A DNA stretch of 59,082 nt from a virus, in IMG/VR virus record IMGVR_UViG_3300025309_000015, positions 1 through 59,082 of that record. One strand, given 5' to 3'. The stretch's first letter is position 1; every line of letters starts with the position of its first letter. The position numbers and the translations under genes were made by a program. Below, in pieces: positions 10,372 to 40,872 of this stretch. Below the pieces are notes generated by a model. The model saw only the letters and a program-made list of their open reading frames with translations, was not told the origin of the DNA and did not search any database.

Positions 10372-10524
10372 TTAGGCACAAAAAAGGCACTTAACGAAAA
10401 AACAGGGCATTACTGCTCTGCAAGATCATCAAGTGCCTAATTCTTGATTGTGCCTTTATGTATTTTAACCAGTCAGGCGATAAGGCGGTCGCTTTTCGGG
10501 AGCTAACCTAGACTGGTTTTTAAA
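10372..10524 (+). ncRNA. Structured noncoding region with terminator
   Basis: On the plus strand there are nested stems: AGGCACAA/TTGTGCCT (10374-10381 with 10448-10455), AGGCACTT/AAGTGCCT (10385-10392 with 10431-10438) and CAGGGCA/TGCTCTG (10403-10409 with 10414-10420, one G-U pair). A second hairpin AACCAGTC/GACTGGTT (10467-10474 with 10511-10518) ends in a T tract and encloses GCGA/TCGC. It could be a small RNA or a structured 3' UTR of the 52-aa gene. No known family was recognised. Confidence 0.5.
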
Positions 10525-38218: not shown

Positions 38219-38316
38219 ATTTTAATGATTTTATTTATATTAGTATTATTTTAACTTCTTTGGTATTTAATATTTTTTTACTCTATGAAAACAAATCTTT
38301 AAGAAATGGGAAATAA
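38215..38316 (+). CDS. Small membrane peptide (33 aa)
   Basis: This encodes 33 aa with one membrane span (FIYISIILTSLVFNIFLLYE). It overlaps the 45-aa gene by 4 bases and the secreted protein by one base (TAATG), forming a tightly coupled three-gene unit. Confidence 0.5.
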   Translation: MNFNDFIYISIILTSLVFNIFLLYENKSLRNGK

Positions 38317-38693
38317 TGAAAAGATTTTTAATAACAATTTTAACTATTTTGTTGATGTCAACAATACAGTGCAATATGGCATCAGCAAAACATCTTAATC
38401 CTGAATCCTACTATCAGGATAAACTTTGTGGACAACTTAGCGGACAATTGGAATATCTATTACCTGATAATACTCGTGTTGATTGCTTAACTTCTGAATA
38501 CGCAATAGAAATAGGCTTTATTGACCATAAATACGAAGATGTAGGGCAAAGCCTTTACTATTCATTAATAACTGGTAAAAAACCGGCTATTGCTACAATA
38601 ATTGAAAATCCAAAAATTGCTGAAGAACATTTACATATTTTGCAAAAATTAGCTGAGAAATACGATATAAAAATTTTTATATTACAGCCGTAA
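38316..38693 (+). CDS. Secreted PD-(D/E)XK-like nuclease-family protein
   Basis: This encodes 125 aa. Residues 1-24 are a signal peptide ending ASA. The mature part carries LLPDNTRVDCLTSEYAIEIG, YEDVGQSLYYSLITGKKPAI, the pattern R-V-D-C-L-T...A-I-E-x...G-Q-S-L-Y-Y of a secreted family that resembles the restriction-endonuclease fold (D...E-x...Q). It may be a periplasmic nuclease. It is followed by an HNH mobile gene and then by a second copy of its own C-terminus (39731-39871). Confidence 0.65.
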   Translation: MKRFLITILTILLMSTIQCNMASAKHLNPESYYQDKLCGQLSGQLEYLLPDNTRVDCLTSEYAIEIGFIDHKYEDVGQSLYYSLITGKKPAIATIIENPKIAEEHLHILQKLAEKYDIKIFILQP

Positions 38694-38710
38694 TTTATGC
38701 TATAATTTGT

Positions 38711-38790
38711 GTGGGATAGCCCGACGGGGCGACAAGTTAAGTAATCCTTGCTTAACTTCCCACCATTAATCAAGGAATTGCTAAAGGAGG
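38711..38790 (+). ncRNA. Three-way junction with pseudoknot upstream of HNH gene
   Basis: Stem P1 is GTGGGA/TCCCAC (38711-38716 with 38758-38763), P2 is GCCC/GGGC (38719-38722 with 38727-38730), and P3 is AGTTAAG/CTTAACT (38735-38741 with 38751-38757). The P3 loop TCCTTG (38745-38750) can pair with CAAGGA (38771-38776), just before AAAGGAGG. This could be a riboswitch-like or translational control element, or the structured part of a mobile element. Confidence 0.6.
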
Positions 38791-38800
38791 CAACGTTTTT

Positions 38801-39730
38801 ATGTCAAAATTATGCTTATGTTGTTTTGTCGAAAAAGATTTTTCAGAATTCTATAAAATGAAGCAAGCAAAGGATGGCTACCATAATAAATGCAAGGAGT
38901 GTACCAAAAAGGGATTAAAAATAAGAACTATTGCATTAAAACAAGAATTTAAACTTTGCTCAAAATGTAAAAATACTTATAAAAGAACTAATGAAAATTT
39001 TTACAAAAGCATAAAGAACCCTGACGGTTTATCACGCTATTGCATTAAATGCGATAAAGAAGTTAAAAACAAATATAAACAAGAAAATAAAGACAAAGTT
39101 ATTGAAAGTTATAAAAAAACATATAGGAATACACTGGAAACACGTAAAGAATACCAAGAAAAGAACAAAGAAGAATTAAAAGAATATCATAAAAATTATG
39201 CACAAAAAAATAAAGAAGAATTAAAATCAAAATCTCAAATATATAGAGAGAAAAATAAAGAAAAAATAGCAGCAAGAAGAAGAAAATACTATTTGGAAAA
39301 TAAAGAACATATAATAGATAGAGTTAAAATTTATTATAGAAACAATAAAGAATCTGTACAAAAGTACAAAAGATTATACTTAATAAAAAACAATGATAAA
39401 CAAAAAGCCAAAAATAAAAAGTTTAGAATATTGTTTCCCGAAAGGTATAGGGCATATGCTAATAACTATACTTTAAGAAAGAAAAATGCTATGGGGAATT
39501 TTAGCAATAATGACATTAAAAATAAATTAATAAAACAAAACAACAAATGTTATTGGTGTAATTGCAAACTTGATAATAAATACCAAATTGATCATATTGT
39601 GCCACTTTCCAAAGGTGGAACGAATTATCTTGAAAATATTGCTATTACTTGCATTTCTTGTAATGCTTCAAAATCTGATAAAATGCCAGATGAATGGGAA
39701 CGTTATTTAAAAAATGTTGTCATTCGTTAA
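38801..39730 (+). CDS. HNH endonuclease with zinc-ribbon N-terminus
   Basis: This encodes 309 aa. The N-terminal 80 residues hold two ribbon-like modules (LCLCCFVEKDFSEFYKMKQ, CKECTKK; LCSKCKNTY, YCIKCDKE). The middle is a repetitive lysine- and asparagine-rich coiled coil (KNKEELKEYHKNYAQKNKEE and similar). The C-terminus is an HNH core (CYWCNCKLDNKYQIDHIVPL, SKGGTN, CISCNASKSD). AAAGGAGG is 10 bases upstream. It lies between an intact gene and a displaced fragment of a similar gene. Confidence 0.85.
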   Translation: MSKLCLCCFVEKDFSEFYKMKQAKDGYHNKCKECTKKGLKIRTIALKQEFKLCSKCKNTYKRTNENFYKSIKNPDGLSRYCIKCDKEVKNKYKQENKDKVIESYKKTYRNTLETRKEYQEKNKEELKEYHKNYAQKNKEELKSKSQIYREKNKEKIAARRRKYYLENKEHIIDRVKIYYRNNKESVQKYKRLYLIKNNDKQKAKNKKFRILFPERYRAYANNYTLRKKNAMGNFSNNDIKNKLIKQNNKCYWCNCKLDNKYQIDHIVPLSKGGTNYLENIAITCISCNASKSDKMPDEWERYLKNVVIR

Positions 39731-39871
39731 TATGGACAAGCTACAGGAAAACAAGCTAAATCTGTTTTGATAGTTGAGAGTCCTGAAGAACAAAAATTTA
39801 TTGATCGAGTTTTACAGGTTGTTAAATTTTATAATTTACCGGTTATTATAGAAGTTTATAAAGCCTATTAA
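39731..39871 (+). pseudogene. Displaced C-terminal fragment of the secreted nuclease-like gene
   Basis: Directly after the HNH stop, in the same frame, 46 codons read YGQATGKQAKSVLIVESPEE and on to TAA at 39869-39871. They align to the C-terminus of the intact protein (YYSLITGKKPAIATIIENP): Y, TGK, I-x-E and P are shared and the predicted strand-helix-strand layout is the same. There is no start codon or ribosome site, so it is not expressed alone. Confidence 0.6.
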
Positions 39872-40011: not shown

Positions 40012-40872
40012 TTAATTTACGGGCTTTGTACGCTCGGAAAATAAGGTTTTAAACATATCTTTTGGTGGTGGTGATACTAAAAACTTATCAACTTTCGATT
40101 TTTCCTGAAATTCCCTAATTTTTTTCATACGAGCATTATAATAAATATCAATTTTTTCTTGCTTATAGTAAGGTTCTTTAGTGTTTATAACCTGTATTTC
40201 TGAATCATTGAGCATAATAAATTTTTCAAGATTTTCTTTCTGGAAATTTGTTAAAGATGTTCTATTAAGCTTAATCTTGCATAAATGCTCTTTATCTGAT
40301 TCTGAAAGTTTTGAAACTTCTTCAGAATACAAAACCGTATTTGTTTTGCTCAGATCCATTAAATTTTTAAAAGAAAAATTGTTATTTTGTTTAATTATTT
40401 GTTTAGTTTCTTGTTCAGGTACAAAATTTCTGCCTGTATTATACTTTATATCAGTGTTTATACCTGATGCATTTAATGAAGATACTTCATATTTTTGTGC
40501 AGATATTTCATTTTTTAATGAAGATTCTTCATTCTGATTGCAAAAATTTTTGAGATCCAGTAGTTCATAAAATTTCTTAGTAAAATAAATCTTTTTATCT
40601 GTTCGCATAATTAAACCAGAAGAAACAGAAAGTTGTTTTATTCCGTCCTTGATCTGTCTGATTGAATAACCTGTACAAGCAGCAAGTTTTTCTTCACCCG
40701 GGAAAGAATAACCTAATTTTGGATTATACATACTGGATAAAGTTAAAAGAATCATTCTCGATACTGGTTTTAAACCAATTTTTGAAAATAAATCTGTTTT
40801 AATAATTGCGTTTGATAACTCATAGCTTTTAACGTTGACTTGCAACGCTTCTGTTGATGCCGTTTTGTGCAT
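40012..40872 (-). CDS. Plasmid-type replication protein, HTH_36 class
   Basis: This encodes 286 aa. Residues 25-90 (LKPVSRMILLTLSSMYNPKL, GYSFPGEEKLAACTGYSIRQ, IKDGIKQLS) are the winged-helix HTH_36 domain found in plasmid and phage replication initiators. The rest is charged and helical. A perfect inverted repeat and promoter lie just upstream (40913-40981). It could initiate replication of an extrachromosomal prophage. An alternative is a transcription regulator. Confidence 0.6.
   Translation of the reverse strand: MHKTASTEALQVNVKSYELSNAIIKTDLFSKIGLKPVSRMILLTLSSMYNPKLGYSFPGEEKLAACTGYSIRQIKDGIKQLSVSSGLIMRTDKKIYFTKKFYELLDLKNFCNQNEESSLKNEISAQKYEVSSLNASGINTDIKYNTGRNFVPEQETKQIIKQNNNFSFKNLMDLSKTNTVLYSEEVSKLSESDKEHLCKIKLNRTSLTNFQKENLEKFIMLNDSEIQVINTKEPYYKQEKIDIYYNARMKKIREFQEKSKVDKFLVSPPPKDMFKTLFSERTKPVN

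Follow-up and report, generated by a model that had tools for sequence, protein, structure and literature searches.

In a viral DNA stretch of 59,082 nucleotides (IMG/VR record IMGVR_UViG_3300025309_000015, positions 1 to 59,082; hereafter the window), an intact gene for a secreted nuclease-like protein is followed by a promoter-like element, a structured RNA, an HNH endonuclease gene, and a second, start-less version of the gene's own 3' end. The reading that we favor, to which we assign only a little less than an even chance, is one-sided homing, in which an HNH cassette supplied the gene with a new end and pushed the old end downstream. The leader RNA in front of the HNH gene belongs to a type that is found in many other phage sequences, and the results on this RNA are probably the more general finding of this analysis. 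The four-part layout outlined in the first-pass annotation (gene, RNA, HNH gene, and start-less fragment) was borne out in full, and the features of the locus are listed in Table 1.

Table 1. Features of the interrupted locus in the window
Feature	Coordinates	Strand	Evidence
Complete copy of the interrupted gene, 125 aa, secreted family with predicted PD-(D/E)XK fold	38316..38693	+	ORF, homologs, AF2, VIA-align, residue survey
Local 3' end of the interrupted gene, from Y82; parallels the displaced end	38559..38693	+	Alignment
Extended -10 promoter-like element TGCTATAAT, about 7 nt 5' of the RNA	38698..38706	+	Sequence
int-alpA-like leader RNA, sub-threshold, P1/P2/P3 three-way junction	38709..38775	+	cmscan, dual complementarity
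P3 loop UCCUUG of the leader RNA	38745-38750	+	Complementarity
Decoy CAAGGA of the leader RNA	38771-38776	+	Complementarity
Small hairpin UUGC/GCAA presenting the Shine-Dalgarno site AAAGGAGG (38783-38790) of the HNH gene	38778..38793	+	
HNH endonuclease, zinc-finger/endonuclease VII-like, 309 aa	38801..39730	+	Pfam, PHROGs
Displaced start-less C-terminal remnant, 46 codons plus stop, second version of the interrupted gene	39731..39871	+	Profile searches

The interrupted gene and its family

The gene at 38316 is intact and of secreted type, as had been proposed, with a full open reading frame and a signal-peptide-like start. Members of its family were gathered from phages, IMG/VR, and bacterial genomes. 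They are secreted proteins of about 100 mature residues that occur in phages and prophages, and no match to the window gene was found among plasmids. An AlphaFold2 model of the family protein, based on 72 sequences, reached a pLDDT of 96.9. The best VIA-align matches of this predicted structure were NucS/EndoMS (Z 10.1 and 9.9 over 88-93 residues), followed by AF1548 (Z 9.0), PaqCI (Z 8.0), and then Can2 and CdiA-CT toxin domains; a Foldseek search with the model of the 38316 gene gave nothing significant. With VIA-align Z scores of 8.0-10.1 against four nucleases, the family is predicted to adopt a restriction-endonuclease-like PD-(D/E)XK fold.

Four residues (D56, E65, E74, and Q78) are invariant in 147/147 family members, and all of them are kept in the window copy. 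Two further positions are almost as well conserved, D67 being kept in 143/147 members and K71 in 144/147, and the window copy has G67 and H71 instead. Because of these two replacements, the window copy of this PD-(D/E)XK-like protein may be an inactive nuclease.

Some other records of the family deserve a brief description. At L069:3077-4075, the family gene is broken by an IS200/IS605-like element. At L317:2430-3962, a HepT/MntA-like toxin-antitoxin pair is flanked on one side by a complete family gene and on the other by a decaying duplicate of that gene's 3' end, with 90% identity. Another record, L005 (PP511318.1, Dulem virus 31), is a circular record of 35.8 kb, assigned to Microviridae, that carries a CI-type repressor and tailed-phage-type genes, and its Microviridae taxonomy line is probably wrong.

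The displaced gene end

The first-pass annotation had aligned the start-less fragment to the C-terminus of the 38316 gene and had named a profile search as the test of this likeness. Pairwise BLASTP between the remnant and the gene gives a weak match (E 0.006). A C-terminal family profile built without the window, on the other hand, matches the remnant with 37.1 bits and an i-E of 3.5e-9 among six-frame ORFs, the alignment starting at profile column 1. The remnant is also matched by a seven-sequence profile built without it (E 6.9e-5) and by the family profile without the window (E 2.9e-5). A chance likeness to the gene end is therefore ruled out by profile search, despite the weak BLASTP score, and the view that the remnant represents a genuine C-terminus of this family, now displaced, is supported. 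It begins at family residue Y82, within the conserved GQ(A/S)LYY..TGK motif, immediately 3' of the HNH stop codon and in frame with the HNH gene, and its reading frame is still open across 46 codons. In the alignment, YYGVQTKRQ of Dulem virus 31 stands where the remnant has YGQATGKQ. With the remnant itself as query, no match was found in phage records.

The DNA of the two tails is identical in 78/148 aligned columns, about 53%, which argues against a plain duplication. Such a duplication was rejected for the window on this ground; L317, in contrast, is one.

The HNH gene and its leader RNA

The product of the HNH gene matches Pfam HNH_5 (5.5e-10) and HNH (9.2e-8) as well as phrog_1035 (9.2e-22), in agreement with the first assignment of this gene as an HNH endonuclease. 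With a nuclease domain and a position outside any intron, it is a candidate free-standing homing endonuclease. No HNH relatives at E < 1e-20 were present in 335 genomes of Gastranaerophilales, the order holding many relatives of the 38316 gene. Three further HNH-type genes are located on the minus strand of the window phage (7399-7926, 14361-14666, and 20108-20737). No duplicated ends were detected at these other HNH genes by a flank test, which also misses the window's own case. Likewise, a comparison of flank against flank at 70 RNA loci yielded no signal stronger than that of permuted pairs, the same test again missing the window's own case.

The RNA region folds better than its shuffled versions (z -2.3), and cmscan matches it over the full length of the Rfam model int-alpA (RF02996) with 30.4 bits and an E value of 1.2e-4; both results uphold the structured RNA that had been recognized at this position. 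Since the score is below the curated gathering score of 35.8, the RNA is referred to here as int-alpA-like. It shares with int-alpA the UAG-CCCGACG-GGGCGA core, the P1/P2/P3 junction, and a loop complementary to a 3' segment, and differs from it by the sub-threshold score, by its position directly before an HNH gene, and by a loop that also matches the Shine-Dalgarno (SD) site. The element TGCTATAAT is a promoter-like candidate for the promoter of the RNA-HNH cassette, and -10-like elements are also seen at the same position in several related leaders. Besides this RNA, the window contains a second int-alpA RNA on the minus strand (10453-10518), which scores 46 bits, above the Rfam cut-off. 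It follows a 101-aa ORF and precedes the portal gene, with no obvious gene start directly after it.

Leader RNA beside the family gene was seen in 0/15 of the closest loci and, by a narrow pattern, in none of the remaining relatives. The RNA being absent beside the checked relatives, the idea that it is a regular part of the nuclease-like locus is unsupported, and the RNA belongs with the HNH gene.

HNH genes are frequent in phage group I introns, and the remnant shares its frame with the HNH stop codon, so that the RNA and the HNH gene might be read as a self-splicing intron with the remnant as its downstream exon. However, a complete homologous 3' end is already present in the 38316 gene. 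Moreover, no Rfam intron model matched at gathering across the window or at E values up to 10 around the RNA, which is of the int-alpA type and stands before genes of many kinds. We rejected the intron reading, which is extremely improbable given the complete local end and the lack of an intron model.

Origin of the two gene ends

According to one-sided homing, the reading preferred here, a cassette comprising the promoter-like element, the int-alpA-like leader RNA, and the HNH gene would have entered a gene of the secreted PD-(D/E)XK-like family. The recipient gene would have been cut near the conserved GQ(A/S)LYY codons, and its left broken end would then have been extended, by one-sided repair, through copying from a donor that had the cassette behind a homologous gene. 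In this way, the 38316 gene would have gained the complete 3' end of the donor, followed by the RNA and the HNH gene, and the right broken end would have been joined immediately after the stop codon of the HNH gene, so that the old 3' end of the recipient would be left as an untranslated remnant. As the newly acquired end completes the ORF with a different sequence, the gene would survive and may escape further cutting. Within the cassette, TGCTATAAT would act as the promoter, and the P3 loop would pair with either the decoy or the SD site and thereby govern HNH translation.

The insertion of an element carrying a new 3' end had been suggested in the first-pass annotation. Two parts of this suggestion hold, namely the true, diverged, displaced C-terminus and the association of the RNA with the HNH gene; the unit of new 3' end, RNA, and HNH gene was seen at no second site. 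The recurrence of HNH plus RNA with duplicated ends, which had also been proposed as a check, has one counterpart in mirror image. At the phage locus L095, an RNA-HNH cassette is preceded by a gene-start fragment (MVTGEQVE) and followed by a second, diverged copy (VAITGEQVF), which spans the same intergenic stretch and start (69 alignment columns, 67% identity). This locus, with a duplicated 5' end, is the nearest analogue found of the arrangement in the window. Flank similarity at another locus, L096, was rejected as not convincing.

The question of which end is native was approached by a half-gene test, in which relatives were ranked separately by each half of the gene and the two rankings were compared by Spearman correlation across 147 members. 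For the window gene, the 5' half against the local 3' half gave -0.17, and 0/146 other members were lower, a discordance that is predicted for a swapped end. The 5' half against the displaced end gave 0.01, with 1/146 others lower, so the test yields no clean answer, and the divergent 5' half may blur both rank comparisons. The comparison of the two C-termini that had been called for thus has a mixed outcome, the local end being the most discordant and the displaced end hardly better. The search for uninterrupted versions in related phages came back empty: no close uninterrupted relative of the phage or of the gene was found in phages, IMG/VR, or bacterial genomes. Close kin sought by identical TerL comprised a single other record of 15.5 kb, from which the region is absent, and the sole match to the gene at 40012-40872 was a contig ending inside that gene.

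A different origin of the remnant would be a truncated tandem paralogue, the HNH cassette having come to lie between or inserted into two adjacent family genes, the second of which lost its 5' part. The tails are diverged as those of paralogues would be, the displaced end shows no agreement with the 5' half of the first gene in the half-gene test, and L317 demonstrates that duplication of a gene end around cargo is possible in this family. Against this, two complete copies side by side were found in 0/167 family-bearing loci, many of which are cut by contig ends, and two hits were present in only 3/167 (the window, L069, and L317). The tandem paralogue is therefore disfavored, and we regard it as unlikely.

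int-alpA-type leaders across phages

The core TAGCCCGACG(N)GGGCGA was found in at least 119 IMG/VR stretches. Most of the matches are built like the leader RNA before the HNH gene, and a start codon follows the core after some 50-90 bases. The genes behind these leaders include HNH, HNH_3/4/5, endonuclease VII, GIY-YIG, NUMOD, and AP2 types, together with many unknown genes, and homing-type genes amount to about a third of those examined (our own count from translations). In 286 Gastranaerophilales genomes, int-alpA gave three matches (L428, L429, and L430), 3/3 of which are located before HNH-type genes. The HNH-type gene of L428 appears to be frameshifted.

In the window, the P3 loop is complementary both to the decoy and to the SD site. 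This dual complementarity was analyzed in 88 distinct phage leaders, with loops permuted among loci as the control. The mean longest match between the P3 loop and the linear segment behind the junction is 5.0 (permuted, 3.23 ± 0.10), and that between the P3 loop and the leader's own SD region is 4.86 (permuted, 3.60 ± 0.09). In addition, the SD site tends to lie within a small hairpin, whose mean arm in the leader set is 4.03 (shuffled, 3.07 ± 0.10), and the P3 loop matches the loop of this SD hairpin with a mean of 4.39 (control, 3.18 ± 0.10). A replicate on a separate set of 26 leaders, detected in bacterial genomes with the Rfam model, gave 5.15 versus 3.46 ± 0.19 for the decoy and 4.65 versus 3.67 ± 0.17 for the SD site, and 0/1000 permutations reached the observed values. 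Because of kinship among leaders, the spreads given here are understated, and the 26-leader replicate guards against this only in part.

These comparisons suggest that the leader RNA is a translational switch, in which the loop would free the SD site when paired with the decoy and block it when paired with the SD site itself. The leader RNA of the window probably controls HNH translation in this manner. int-alpA has reportedly been described in an earlier paper, and no functional paper on the Rfam family was found in the literature searched. The dual complementarity of the P3 loop is a property with no known earlier description, and it may be more novel than the gene-end result. It would provide int-alpA with a testable function, translational switching, and connect this family with selfish genes and with the exchange of cargo.

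What pairs of leader loci have in common at the DNA level is usually limited to about -25 to +50/+80 relative to the core. In several groups (L102/L136/L143/L135, L139/L188, L110/L199, and L389/L392), the upstream flanks are alike over 1.2-1.7 kb, and the similarity ends within the RNA, or at or just past the RNA end, with different genes next. Leaders can thus, as far as these alignments indicate, mark the boundaries of cargo swaps. The flank pattern is consistent with an exchange of cargo at the RNA, and from it comes the main rival explanation of the locus, namely a mosaic exchange at the leader RNA, a short stretch common to many phages. Recombination there would have replaced all the DNA to the right of the RNA, so that the HNH gene and the remnant arrived together from a phage whose family gene had already been interrupted by an HNH gene. 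The remnant would then be the gene end of that other phage and not the old end of the window phage. This explanation draws its strength from the leader loci with long similar flanks followed by different genes. However, it requires a coincidence, in that a donor family gene beside the HNH gene must have been joined to a locus of the same family on the left of the RNA, and no checked family relative has the RNA adjoining. We consider it unlikely, though a serious contender to one-sided homing.

Taking the leaders together with the window, we tentatively propose, with somewhat less than even confidence, that int-alpA-type RNAs are widespread, portable 5' leaders of phages, each carrying a promoter-like element and a translation switch with two stable states of one loop (decoy versus SD site, with kissing of the SD hairpin). 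They would serve homing endonucleases and other cargo and offer short homology for cargo swaps, in the present case with the displacement of a gene end.

Comparison with known systems

If one-sided homing is the true origin of the locus, a homing endonuclease of a phage can exchange the end of the gene that it targets, with the gene kept whole and its sequence altered. Chimeric genes and orphan gene ends, which annotation otherwise discards as noise, could arise in phages in this way. No gene-end-displacing endonuclease layout in a phage was found in the few open papers searched.

The predicted fold of the 38316 family is like that of NucS/EndoMS and other PD-(D/E)XK nucleases. Unlike NucS/EndoMS, the window family is secreted, has a single domain, and uses E65-x-D67...K71, of which the window copy is without D67 and K71.

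Mobile endonuclease ORFs that replace gene ends have been reported from mitochondria, in atp6 of Allomyces and in atp6, atp9, cox2, and nad3 of Glomus sp. (PMC3630166). The fungal mitochondrial parallel drawn in the first-pass annotation is real, and the layout is very similar: as in the window, an intact gene with a diverged 3' end is followed by an endonuclease ORF and a displaced second 3' end (PMC3630166). The fungal enzymes are of the LAGLIDADG or GIY-YIG type, and the native end is proven by close relatives (PMC3630166), whereas the window has an HNH enzyme in a phage, an extra promoter-like element and leader RNA, and no close relative found.

The second comparison is with phage T4 and its relatives (PMC2988022). 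One-sided, illegitimate repair in homing is documented there for T4, with homology on one side and an illegitimate join on the other in intron homing. No duplicated gene end in T4-like systems was found in the passages searched. The HNH gene of the window resembles the free-standing HNH (mob) endonucleases of T4-like phages in lying outside an intron. RNA structures control the translation of several free-standing endonucleases in T4-like phages (PMC2988022); there, a hairpin hides the ribosome binding site, whereas leaders of the window type have a loop with two partners.
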